Source: Methanobrevibacter sp. | GTDB lineage: Archaea; Methanobacteriota; Methanobacteria; Methanobacteriales; Methanobacteriaceae | DNA: 64,000 nucleotides | Assembly (NCBI RefSeq): GCF_017940815.1 | Contig: NZ_JAGAXX010000013.1 | Coordinates: 1 to 64,000 of the forward strand | Direction: 5' to 3' | Shown: positions 12,323 to 44,981 of the stretch, one piece after another | Numbering within the stretch: position 1 is the stretch's first letter | Layout of the letters: each line of letters opens with the position of its first letter | Made by a program: the position numbers and the translations under genes | Notes under the pieces: model-generated | The model's database searches: none | The model's input: the letters and a program-made list of their open reading frames with translations, nothing else | What the model was told of the DNA's origin: nothing

Positions 12323-14005
12323 ATGTCAGATTCAGAACCCCGAATGATAGAGATTTTGAGAATTTTAAGTCAGCAGGAAAAGCCTACAGGATCCAAGATG
12401 ATAGCTGATGAGCTGAAGGACAAGGGATTCAATTTAGGGGAACGTGCTGTAAGATACCATATGCAGATTCTTGATGAGAAAGGTTACACTGAAAGAAAGG
12501 GATACTCCGGCAGAGTGATTACAAACCTTGGTCGTGAAAAGTTAGAAAAAGGACTGATTTATGATCAAGTCGATTTCATTTATTCAAAATTTGAAGAAAT
12601 GATTTATTTGACTGACTTCAACTACATCACACAACAAGGAAATGTTGTAGTCAATACATCAACTGTTTATAATGAAGAGTCAATTGATATAATTAAAAGA
12701 ATTATTGAAAGTGGCCTTTCTGTTAGTCCTTACATTAATATAAGCAAAGGTAAAGTTGATGGGGAAATTGAAGTGACAACCTTATGCGGAACCACAATTG
12801 ATGGAATACTTCTCAATGAGGGAATAGCTTCACAACCATTGTACGGAGGACTGCTGAAAATCGAAGACAACACTCCAATAATATTCGAGGAACTGATTTC
12901 ATACAGGAAAACCTCACTCACACCACTCGATGCGTTTTCATCACCCAACAGGACATCAGTATTGGACGTGATTGACTCAGGAGCAGGGCTTATACCTGCA
13001 AACTTCAGACTTATACCAAGTATCGGAAGGGAAAAAACCATTGATGTCATAAATAAACTTGACAAAATAGGAATTGGAGGAGTAATTGGAATTTCAGATG
13101 AAAGCCAGGACATTTTAGGAATTCCAGTTCCTGAAGGAATGGTTGGAATAGCCCTTGTCGGAGGAATAACCCCATTCAGGGCAGTCCAGGAATCCGGTGA
13201 GGAAATCGACATAAAAATAGCTGAAGAAATAAGAAGCTTCAATACATTGACTCCAATCACATCAACAATTAAAAACAGTCTGAAGCCTGTCACACAGGCA
13301 GCACAGCCTAATGTATCATTTTTACTTTCAAAATCATGGAACTTAATCCAGCAGGTGAACTTTGACGTTGAAAAAAGAAAGGGAAACATCGTTTCAAATG
13401 TATCCTACCTTAAAAAGGATGACCTGGACAACGCACTGTCCATAATGGAAGACACATACAACAACGATCCAAAATACATCAATCCATACTACAAGATACT
13501 TGAACATCCTACTGACGATGACAAAATCGGTATCGCAACAATATGTAGCCTGAGCATTGATGGAATATTAATAAACAACGGAATAAGATGCACCCCAAGA
13601 TATGGTGGACTTCTGGAACTTACAGAACCGTCCCTATTCATTGAATTGATTTCCTACAACGGTTCAACAGTTGACCCTCACAAGATATTCATTGCAAAAG
13701 AAATGACCTCAATCACCCGTGACATGGGACCTAGAAAAATATTGGCCAGCTTTAAGGAAATCCCATACATATCCCGTGACTATTCAGTGAATCTGCTTGA
13801 CACATTGGATAAGATAGGATTGTCAATATATAAAATAGGAAAACCAAGGGAACTGACCTACAATGCAAAAGCAGATAACTATCACTTCGGTATCGTTGCA
13901 GGCAGTGGATTAAATACAATAGCTGCGGTTAGAGAAAAAGGCGTTGACATACACGTTAAGGCTATTGAAAAATTGATACCTTTTGAAAAGATGGACAGAC
14001 TGTAA
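12323..14005 (+). CDS. nrpR: global nitrogen regulator NrpR
   Basis: 560 residues. A winged-helix domain is at about 1-75 (ILRILSQQ...ERAVRYHMQILDEKGYTER), followed by two homologous NrpR (DUF128) domains. Each repeats a TLCGTTIDGILLNEGI / TICSLSIDGILINNGI segment, YGGLLxI/L and a C-terminal G(I/L)A/SG...TPxxAVxExG stretch. NrpR represses nitrogen-assimilation genes and releases DNA when 2-oxoglutarate binds. Single-protein two-domain architecture matches the family in Methanobacteriales and Methanococcus. GGAG precedes the ATG. The gene lies 42 nt after glnA, suggesting an autoregulated glnA-nrpR unit split by a terminator. Confidence 0.93.
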   Translation: MSDSEPRMIEILRILSQQEKPTGSKMIADELKDKGFNLGERAVRYHMQILDEKGYTERKGYSGRVITNLGREKLEKGLIYDQVDFIYSKFEEMIYLTDFNYITQQGNVVVNTSTVYNEESIDIIKRIIESGLSVSPYINISKGKVDGEIEVTTLCGTTIDGILLNEGIASQPLYGGLLKIEDNTPIIFEELISYRKTSLTPLDAFSSPNRTSVLDVIDSGAGLIPANFRLIPSIGREKTIDVINKLDKIGIGGVIGISDESQDILGIPVPEGMVGIALVGGITPFRAVQESGEEIDIKIAEEIRSFNTLTPITSTIKNSLKPVTQAAQPNVSFLLSKSWNLIQQVNFDVEKRKGNIVSNVSYLKKDDLDNALSIMEDTYNNDPKYINPYYKILEHPTDDDKIGIATICSLSIDGILINNGIRCTPRYGGLLELTEPSLFIELISYNGSTVDPHKIFIAKEMTSITRDMGPRKILASFKEIPYISRDYSVNLLDTLDKIGLSIYKIGKPRELTYNAKADNYHFGIVAGSGLNTIAAVREKGVDIHVKAIEKLIPFEKMDRL

Positions 14006-14016
14006 TTAGATTACAG
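14000..14016. terminator. convergent hairpin at nrpR stop
   Basis: CTGTAAT and ATTACAG flank TAG; both facing stop codons (nrpR and the minus-strand gene) lie inside the stem. There is no clear T-run, so termination strength is uncertain. Confidence 0.4.
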
Positions 14017-14296
14017 TAACTTCCACATCTTCACCATCTTTCGGATAATGGATAAATTCAATAATATCCTCTTCTACTTCATACACATCTATTTCTATTG
14101 TAGCTCCCAATGCACTTTCATCGAGAGAGACAAGCATTTTAAAACCTGGTTTGCCGAAATAATCAGAAAAGTCCATGTTCAAGACTTCTCCTTCTGCAAA
14201 AATCCTGTCGTAGGATATTTCAATTCCATCATGAATTTTAACATTTTCTTTCAAGTAATTTACAGCTTCTTCAGTGGTTAATTCAATATTTTTCAT
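14006..14296 (-). CDS. small acidic protein, paralogue 1 (unknown function)
   Basis: 96 residues when started at the ATG at 14296 (GAGGTTGAT 4 nt upstream) rather than the GTG at 14311. Strongly acidic, with no membrane segment. It aligns end to end with the gene at 14404-14694: EAVNYLKENVKIHDGIEISYDRIFAEGEVL here against ETVEYVRNNVYVGDVFEISYNRIFAPGEVL there. I do not recognise the family with certainty; it may be one of the methanogen-only DUFs (DUF2097 is one candidate). The two copies follow the fwd operon on the same strand. Confidence 0.7.
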   Translation of the reverse strand: MKNIELTTEEAVNYLKENVKIHDGIEISYDRIFAEGEVLNMDFSDYFGKPGFKMLVSLDESALGATIEIDVYEVEEDIIEFIHYPKDGEDVEVTVI

Positions 14297-14354
14297 AATA
14301 ATCAACCTCACTATTAAGTATTACTCTCATCATATAAAAATTGTTTGTATATTA

Positions 14355-14375
14355 TCGAACAAAAAAATTGTTCGA
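14355..14375. repeat. inverted repeat between the two small paralogues
   Basis: TCGAACAA and TTGTTCGA are separated by five A. On the minus strand it lies downstream of one gene and roughly 15-20 bp upstream of a TATA-like TTTTTATATG of the next, so it may be a terminator or a protein-binding site. Confidence 0.5.
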
Positions 14376-42482: not shown

Positions 42483-42504
42483 TTGTTCGAATAAAGACGA
42501 ACAA
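42483..42504. promoter_or_regulatory. operator dyad 1 of nrdD, TTGTTCG-N8-CGAACAA
   Basis: A perfect 7-bp inverted repeat with an eight-base spacer, immediately upstream of the TATA box TTTATATA. Confidence 0.75.
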
Positions 42505-42512
42505 TTTATATA
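42505..42512 (+). promoter_or_regulatory. TATA box of nrdD
   Basis: TTTATATA, touching operator dyad 1. The predicted start of transcription near 42535-42540 falls at operator dyad 2, giving a leader of about 120 nt. Confidence 0.6.
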
Positions 42513-42539
42513 CTATAAAATTCTAAGTATTAATTAGAT

Positions 42540-42557
42540 GTTCGTATCAATACGAAC
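42540..42557. promoter_or_regulatory. operator dyad 2 of nrdD, GTTCG-N8-CGAAC
   Basis: Same half-sites and same eight-base spacer as dyad 1. The centres of the two are 55 bp apart, about five helical turns. Confidence 0.7.
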
Positions 42558-42595: not shown

Positions 42596-42613
42596 TGAGA
42601 GTATGCTCTCTCA
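42596..42613 (+). other. small leader hairpin before nrdD
   Basis: TGAGAG and CTCTCA pair across six bases, about 50 nt before the nrdD start, in the probable 5' leader. A role is unknown. Confidence 0.4.
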
Positions 42614-42662: not shown

Positions 42663-44981
42663 ATGGAAAAAATTTCAGAATTAGGAAATAATATGAATGA
42701 AACCGTTAAAATTAACGTAGAAAAGAATAACGGTATTAAAGAAAGATTCAGTTACGAAAAATTAGTAAAATCATTAGTAATGGTAGAAACCCCATTCTTT
42801 GAATCTGATAAAATCGTGGCTACAGTAGTATCTCAATTATACGATGGAATCAAAACCAAAGAAATCAAAAAAATTGTTCACGAATGTTTAGAAGACATCG
42901 ATCCTGAAATTGCAAACAAATACTTAGCAAGTACCCAATTAAAAGTACGTACTTCAAAAGACACTATTGAAGCATTCGACTTATCCAGAATCGCTAACAC
43001 CTTGATTGAAGAAACCGGTGCTAGCCAAGAAACTGCTTTTGAAATCGCTACTGAAACCTGGAAAGAACTCAAAAAATTAAATGTTGAATACTTGACCGCA
43101 CCTATGATCAGGGAAATGGTCAACACCAAATTGATTGAATACGGTTTAGAAGACTTAAGAAGCCGTTACACCCGTTTAGGTATCCCTGTATACAACATTA
43201 CCTCACTCATCGAAAACGGTAACAGGGACAACGCAAACATGATTCACAACCCTGAAAGTATTCACAAACATGTAGCGGACGAAGCATTAAAACAATACGC
43301 ATTATTAAAAATGTTACCAGCACACTTAGCAGACGCACACATGTCCGGTGACATTCACATTCACGATTTGGAATTCTTCGCAGGAAGACCTTTAAACTGT
43401 CTTCAACATGATATAAGAACTTTCATCAAATACGGACTTAAAGTTGACGGTACCGGTGACCACACCTCCATTGCAGGTGCACCAAATCACATGGAAACTT
43501 TAATGAACCACACTGGTGAAATCATGCTTGCAGCACAACAAAACATGTCCGGTGGACAATCAATGTCCCTCTGGAACGTATTTGTTGCACCATTTGCAAG
43601 AGGAAGAACCTATGATGAAATCAAACAAGCTGTTCAAATGCTTGTTTACAACTTAAATATGGCTTACGCAGCAAGAGGATCCCAAGTACCGTTCACAAGT
43701 ATGGCATTGGAATTCGGAGTTCCTGACTTCTTGAAAGAAGAAACCGCATACGGACCAAAAGGCCAAGTTGTAGGAACTTACGCTGACTTTGAAGAAGAAA
43801 CCAGATTAATCCAAAGAGCATTCACTGAAACATTACTTGCAGGAGACAATGAAGGTAAACCTCACTTATTCCCAAATACCATTTACACATTAAGACCTGA
43901 AACAATGACCAGTGAATACGAAGATGACCTCCGTTTAGTACACGAATTATCCGCAAAATACGGTTCATCCTACTTTGTAAACATGTTCCCAGAATACAGA
44001 GGCCAAATGGCAAACTACATGGGATGCAGAACCTGTTTACAAGACACCTGGACCGGTGACTGGGACAAAGACTGTTTAAGAACCGGTAACCTTGCATACG
44101 TAACCTTAAACTTACCAAGAATCGGATACCAATCCAAAGACGAAACCCAAGTATTCGAATACTTAGACGAATACATGGATTTAGCAGTTGAAACCTTAAT
44201 GCTCAGAAGAGAACAAGGATTAAAATGTTTAAATGATTTCCACATCTTACCATTCTTAAAACAAAAAGTGGGAGAAGAATCATACTACAGAATTGAAAAT
44301 TCAACATTATCTTTCGGTTTCGTTGGACTTAACGAAATGTTAACCTCATTATTCGGAGAAGGTATTGAAAACGCTGATTCAAACAAATTCGGTGTAAAAT
44401 GTATTGAATACATAAACGATAGAGCTAACCAGTTAAAAGATGAAACCGGACTCAGATGGTCTGTTATCCAAACTCCTGCAGAATCTACTGCTTACAGATT
44501 TGCAACTCTCGATAAAAAACAATTCGGAGACCAAGCAATCGTACAAGGTGAAGGAAACGCTAACTACTACACCAACTCATCTCACGTGCCAGTAGACACA
44601 GGATTATCCTTAATTGAAAAAATCAAAATTGAAGAGCAATATCACAGCATAACCTCTGGTGGACACATCTTCCATGCATTCATGGGAGAATCCTACTCAG
44701 ATCCAGATTCATTAATGAGTTTAACCCACAAAATTGCTCGTAAATCCGATATCGGATTCTGGGCTTACAGCTCAGCATTAAGTTTCTGTCTTAAATGTAA
44801 GACTTTAATGAAAGGACTGAACAATGTTTGTCCTACCTGTGGTGAAAGAGAAGATGTAGAATGGTATGACAGAATTACCGGTTACGTACAACAAGTTGGA
44901 CGTGCAAAATCTGCATCCGGTGGTTGGAACCCAGGTAAACGTCAAGAATTAATTGACAGAAGAAGATTCGAAGATAACTAA
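42663..44981 (+). CDS. nrdD: anaerobic ribonucleoside-triphosphate reductase (class III)
   Basis: 772 residues. An ATP-cone-like N-terminus (IKERFSYEKLVKSLVM) precedes the catalytic barrel. C-terminal CLKCKTLMKGLNNVCPTCG is the zinc site. RITGYVQQVGRAKSASGGWNPGKRQEL contains the glycyl-radical loop. It makes deoxyribonucleotides without oxygen and needs the activase NrdG, which is not encoded nearby. Dyads around the promoter show it is regulated at transcription. The ATG at 42663 has GGTG about 8 nt upstream; a second ATG at 42693 is less likely. Confidence 0.94.
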   Translation: MEKISELGNNMNETVKINVEKNNGIKERFSYEKLVKSLVMVETPFFESDKIVATVVSQLYDGIKTKEIKKIVHECLEDIDPEIANKYLASTQLKVRTSKDTIEAFDLSRIANTLIEETGASQETAFEIATETWKELKKLNVEYLTAPMIREMVNTKLIEYGLEDLRSRYTRLGIPVYNITSLIENGNRDNANMIHNPESIHKHVADEALKQYALLKMLPAHLADAHMSGDIHIHDLEFFAGRPLNCLQHDIRTFIKYGLKVDGTGDHTSIAGAPNHMETLMNHTGEIMLAAQQNMSGGQSMSLWNVFVAPFARGRTYDEIKQAVQMLVYNLNMAYAARGSQVPFTSMALEFGVPDFLKEETAYGPKGQVVGTYADFEEETRLIQRAFTETLLAGDNEGKPHLFPNTIYTLRPETMTSEYEDDLRLVHELSAKYGSSYFVNMFPEYRGQMANYMGCRTCLQDTWTGDWDKDCLRTGNLAYVTLNLPRIGYQSKDETQVFEYLDEYMDLAVETLMLRREQGLKCLNDFHILPFLKQKVGEESYYRIENSTLSFGFVGLNEMLTSLFGEGIENADSNKFGVKCIEYINDRANQLKDETGLRWSVIQTPAESTAYRFATLDKKQFGDQAIVQGEGNANYYTNSSHVPVDTGLSLIEKIKIEEQYHSITSGGHIFHAFMGESYSDPDSLMSLTHKIARKSDIGFWAYSSALSFCLKCKTLMKGLNNVCPTCGEREDVEWYDRITGYVQQVGRAKSASGGWNPGKRQELIDRRRFEDN

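Follow-up and report, generated by a model that had tools for sequence, protein, structure and literature searches.

MsvR, a redox-sensing V4R/HTH repressor of methanogens, has a published site of TTCGTA-N4-TACGAA, which spacing mutants relax to TTCG-N7-9-CGAA (PMC3729527). In its reduced state MthMsvR excludes general transcription factors from the fpaA and msvR promoters and thereby represses both genes; at PmsvR of M. thermautotrophicus the MsvR boxes overlap BRE/TATA, and at PfpaA the start site (PMC3729527). MaMsvR binds DNA in the reduced state only, and in M. acetivorans a copy of the motif within rpoK is left unbound, so the motif alone is insufficient (PMC3729527). In vitro work on MsvR has dealt mainly with the protein's own promoter and, in M. 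thermautotrophicus, with fpaA. The only literature found that brings together MsvR and ribonucleotide reductase (RNR) is a review that mentions the two separately.

The window, meaning the whole 64,000-nucleotide stretch of Methanobrevibacter sp. analysed here, carries two inverted dyads of GTTCG-N8-CGAAC upstream of nrdD (Table 1). Because nrdD is flanked by the gene for the DNA polymerase D large subunit upstream and has rpb4 among its downstream genes, there is no adjacent regulator gene. The best named relatives of this NrdD come from Methanobrevibacter genomes, mostly ruminant-derived. Class I and class II RNRs were not found in the source genome or in other genomes of its genus, and NrdD appears to be the sole RNR and the only source of deoxyribonucleotides.

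Table 1. Features of the nrdD promoter region and of the DUF2097 locus in the window
Feature	Position	Strand	Sequence or basis
Third operator, before DUF2097 gene	14343..14360	-	GTTCG-ATAATATA-CAAAC; kept in 22/30 genomes as GTTCG-N8-YRAA
TATA box of DUF2097 gene	14333..14338	-	TTTATA; sequence
DUF2097 gene	14006-14311	-	
Operator 1, MsvR-box type	42485..42502	+	GTTCGAATAAAGACGAAC; exact dyad GTTCG-AATAAAGA-CGAAC; relaxed published form TTCG-N7-9-CGAA; retained in double-site subclade
TATA box 1, upstream promoter P1	42505..42512	+	TTTATATA; sequence; genus-wide TATA linkage
Operator 2	42540..42557	+	GTTCGTATCAATACGAAC; GTTCG-TATCAATA-CGAAC; published MsvR box TTCGTA-N4-TACGAA inside, exact
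TATA box 2, downstream promoter P2	42561..42568	+	TTATTATA; sequence; aligned TTATAC element in relatives
Leader hairpin, near expected P2 transcription start	42597..42612	+	GAGAG-N6-CTCTC; covariation
nrdD, class III ribonucleoside-triphosphate reductase with ATP-cones	42663..44981	+	NRDD, E 2.6e-167

The two dyads, 55 bp apart as the earlier note has it, are real: in pattern searches, the method of all the genome-wide scans, the 2.03 Mb genome yields no other exact copy (8 further places appear when one mismatch is tolerated), and exact dyads are absent from shuffled sequences. Operator 2 matches the strict MsvR box letter for letter, and operator 1 corresponds to the relaxed form. The CGAAC arm of operator 1 takes the BRE position of TATA box 1. 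It had been supposed that the pair brackets one TATA box, and such an element does lie between the dyads, but a second TATA-like sequence directly 3' of the second dyad means that the repeating unit is an operator-TATA module, present twice.

Of the order's 131 genomes, 125 yielded an NrdD, and some 110 upstream regions were read. The earlier note had named a lack of conservation at nrdD in sister species as what would refute it, and the sites withstand that comparison, with at least one exact dyad in all 51 nrdD promoters read from the genus Methanobrevibacter (two in 31, one in 20) and a mean of 0.00 exact dyads in dinucleotide-shuffled upstream regions. Across these promoters constant arms enclose a variable N8 spacer. 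In each of 82 dyads of the genus (82/82) a TATA-like element starts 1-6 nt past the last base of CGAAC; thus the conserved unit joins a TATA box to an operator whose CGAAC arm lies over the BRE, and the double occurrence of this module at nrdD predicts two promoters. The proposal of paired operators at the nrdD promoter is thereby supported by the sites and by their genus-wide conservation. Where two dyads are present their spacing is 55 in 16 promoters, and otherwise 54 or 56-60 and once 79; strict helical phasing is thus not kept, and looping between the dyads gains no support.

Elsewhere in the order, near-perfect dyads lie next to the TATA box of nrdD in genera g6 (4/4) and g9 (6/7), CGAAC stands immediately 5' of TATA in g13 (4/4), several g12 genomes carry two same-direction copies of ACGAAC upstream of nrdD, and genomes of family f3 have ACGAACAGT(T/C)(T/C)C-like half-sites there. 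Genera g5, g7, g10 and g11 and family f2 have no site in the part of the nrdD upstream region that was read. Two g9 promoters (L092, L098) apparently contain two tandem operator-TATA modules, set wider apart than in Methanobrevibacter, from which it may be that the doubling has arisen more than once.

In the hairpin of the nrdD leader both sides have changed in 4 of the 5 pairs, 92% of cells are paired, and the covariation score was matched by 0 of 500 shuffles; compensatory variants across the genus are GAGAG/CTCTC, GATAG/CTATC and GACAG/CTGTC, and a few genomes with short leaders lack the hairpin. Its role may be to stabilise the 5' end or to regulate as part of the leader. A single tRNA is the only Rfam match in the window.

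The source genome encodes a clear MsvR of 256 residues, with an ArsR-type HTH (HTH_5) and a V4R domain by Pfam, that scores 308 bits against NCBIfam NF053755 (cut-off 220), and MsvR passes the cut-off in 120/131 genomes of the order. In the source genome msvR and a cobI-like gene stand tail to tail. In four other genomes of family f1, three of them within Methanobrevibacter, and in two Methanothermobacter-type genomes, msvR is accompanied by a cobI-like gene, by a flavodiiron gene in divergent orientation, or by both, the divergent gene pair being the arrangement published for M. thermautotrophicus. Five cysteines of the V4R region, including those of CX2CX3P, align with the Methanothermobacter-type protein. 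The three conserved V4R cysteines are present, and the CX2CX3H/P motif reads CFECKLLP, a proline form that has been described for other homologues (PMC3729527). The msvR promoters of the genus contain the same half-sites in 21 of 27 cases, here everted as CGAAC-N1-GTTCG whereas the published order is inverted, so the msvR and nrdD promoters of the genus differ in half-site arrangement. Family f2 has V4R proteins only, with neither a full-length MsvR nor an nrdD site, a co-absence that fits a link between the two, in a single lineage. Three genomes with sites (G073, G075 and G117) have no MsvR above the cut-off, possibly reflecting incomplete assemblies. In several genera with MsvR the part of the nrdD upstream region that was read holds no dyad, so the MsvR-nrdD link is not universal.

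Relaxed dyads followed by a TATA box occur at four places in the source genome, against 0 for a reversed-pattern control: nrdD, the DUF2097 gene, a HEAT-repeat gene on contig C59, and a site on contig C83. The HEAT-gene site is retained in 30/30 genomes and the DUF2097 site in 22/30, with a shuffled mean of <=0.1 for each; the conservation counts cover these two and nrdD. At the DUF2097 locus, reversed half-sites had been reported at 14355-14375, and CGAAC (14356-14360) and GTTCG (14370-14374) are indeed there, but relatives do not retain them in this order; what they conserve is the minus-strand dyad GTTCG-N8-CAAAC (14360-14343), followed by its TATA box. The C83 site (L383, around 1501-1526) consists of a GTTTG-like-N8-CGAAC dyad with TATATA, flanked by one gene for a NifB-like radical SAM protein and another that is methanogenesis-marker-like, both named by eye from translations, and its operator would sit just downstream of the TATA box for the NifB-like gene.

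Dyads also occur in two other settings. In at least 7 genomes a Cdc48-like AAA ATPase gene is preceded, at ~280 nt, by GTTCG-N8-CGAAC; the dyad mostly lies near the end of a prephenate-dehydrogenase-like gene and has no clear TATA link (L014, L015, L029, L150, L155-L158, about 1501-1518). In others a dyad stands between two copies of a AAAGTAGTAGATAATT-like repeat near ATPase/integrase-like genes, with varying spacers (L010, L023, L036, L152, L153), a combination that looks like a mobile or recombination element. Both groups were excluded from the core regulon because they lack a clear TATA link.

The most probable regulator of the nrdD operator pair is thus a known one, MsvR. The earlier note had suggested a new archaeal ribonucleotide-reductase regulator, a suggestion that finds no support here, since the motif is the published MsvR box, MsvR is encoded in the genome, and the sites also precede non-RNR genes. 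Directly observed are the sites, the way they are conserved and tied to TATA boxes, an msvR gene with the same half-sites in its promoter, and a small shared regulon. We infer MsvR binding at nrdD, the direction of control and redox as the signal at this promoter, and hold with good confidence that the dyads are MsvR operators governing two tandem promoters under like control, where reduced MsvR would hinder TBP/TFB and oxidation would raise transcription. With each operator directly 5' of its own TATA box and its CGAAC arm over the BRE, nrdD would have two tandem, equally controlled promoters. If these promoters work as that of msvR does in M. thermautotrophicus, a dimer of reduced MsvR bound to the box would stand in the way of TBP/TFB; oxidation of the V4R cysteines would alter or release binding, and nrdD transcription would rise. 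The caution raised by rpoK applies to the nrdD dyads as well, though these stand at a promoter, in AT-rich flanks, and are conserved.

The most likely form of control is redox-responsive repression, with MsvR occluding BRE/TATA, yet the published logic, in which the reduced protein represses, sits uneasily with an enzyme that a strict anaerobe cannot do without. Because NrdD is the sole RNR, repression in reducing growth could only be partial and would adjust a set point, not switch the gene off. Because NrdD appears to be the only source of deoxyribonucleotides, full repression in such growth is impossible, and activation has to be considered beside partial repression. MsvR might act as an activator at nrdD, recruiting TBP/TFB from just upstream of the TATA box. 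Archaeal TBP-recruiting activators can sit directly upstream of BRE/TATA, and the nrdD sites, directly 5' of these elements, occupy a possible seat of this kind in front of the only RNR, which is required in reducing growth. Recruitment of TBP is a defined activation mechanism (PMC3729527). It is nonetheless the BRE position itself that the CGAAC arm takes, and at the nearest characterised promoter, that of M. thermautotrophicus msvR, boxes overlapping BRE/TATA bring about repression by TBP/TFB exclusion, so that activation, while possible, is rather unlikely.

It is improbable that a different regulator sharing the MsvR half-site, whether the other V4R protein of this genome or an RNR-specific factor yet to be described, binds the nrdD dyads. 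The genome does contain a second V4R/HTH paralogue (G000:C33, 44% identical); many genomes with nrdD dyads, however, have one V4R protein only (G001, G002, G004, G007), and the half-sites are present in the msvR promoter and missing from the paralogue's own. Since the paralogue is missing from many dyad genomes and its promoter is without half-sites, it is not a better candidate than MsvR.

That the dyads are divergent NrdR boxes is scarcely credible. Paired boxes before an RNR gene are an NrdR-like arrangement, but the NrdR gene (TIGR00244) has no match in the source genome and the cut-off is passed by 1 of 140 genomes of the order, which already refutes the idea and agrees with the earlier view that the dyads are unrelated to NrdR; moreover, the MsvR box fits the sequence, and genes other than those for RNR have such sites too. 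Separately, proteins of ~92-108 residues that match the ATP-cone part of NrdR alone were seen in families f2 and f3 and in genus g15 (L237, L238 and similar), and these are possible stand-alone nucleotide sensors. That AT-rich promoter DNA produced these palindromes by chance, or that they are RNA hairpins (the P1 transcript could fold perfect 5 bp arms), can be dismissed by conservation, given fixed arms around a varying N8 in 51/51 promoters, none in shuffles, a constant position relative to TATA, and an operator 1 that lies upstream of its own TATA box and so would not be transcribed from P1.

With MsvR as the regulator, DNA-precursor synthesis in Methanobrevibacter is probably under redox control. 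What is new is the target: the sole RNR, which has the operator-TATA module in duplicate and belongs to a small conserved regulon. More tentatively, at somewhat less than even chances, MsvR may serve as the redox switch for the DNA-precursor supply of gut methanogens, acting on a sole oxygen-sensitive RNR through two MsvR-controlled tandem promoters that differ in set point; msvR, nrdD, DUF2097 and the HEAT-repeat protein would together make up a small conserved regulon. If so, the regulon members of unknown function, DUF2097 and the HEAT-repeat protein, would be new redox-stress proteins. An MsvR-type operator at the sole RNR offers a concrete physiological target for MsvR in gut methanogens, suggests a possible tie of DNA synthesis to oxygen exposure, and comes with a short list of conserved candidate MsvR targets, two of them of unknown function.

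Like the nrdD pair, bacterial NrdR box pairs place two operators before an RNR gene, although NrdR boxes are unlike the nrdD dyads in sequence and spacing. The operator of NrpR, GGAA-N8-TTCC, has short arms and a spacer of similar length but a different arm sequence; an NrpR gene lies within the window at 12323-14005. With boxes 2/3 of M. thermautotrophicus PmsvR and boxes A/B of M. acetivorans, the nrdD dyads share the inverted half-sites TTCGTA-N4-TACGAA, the AT-rich flanks, the placement at BRE/TATA, for which M. thermautotrophicus PmsvR provides the match in position, and the succession of CGAAC and TATA within a few bases. They differ from these PmsvR boxes in the looser spacer of operator 1 (TTCGAA..GACGAA), in a target that is nrdD rather than msvR or fpaA, and in the presence of two full operator-TATA modules in tandem.
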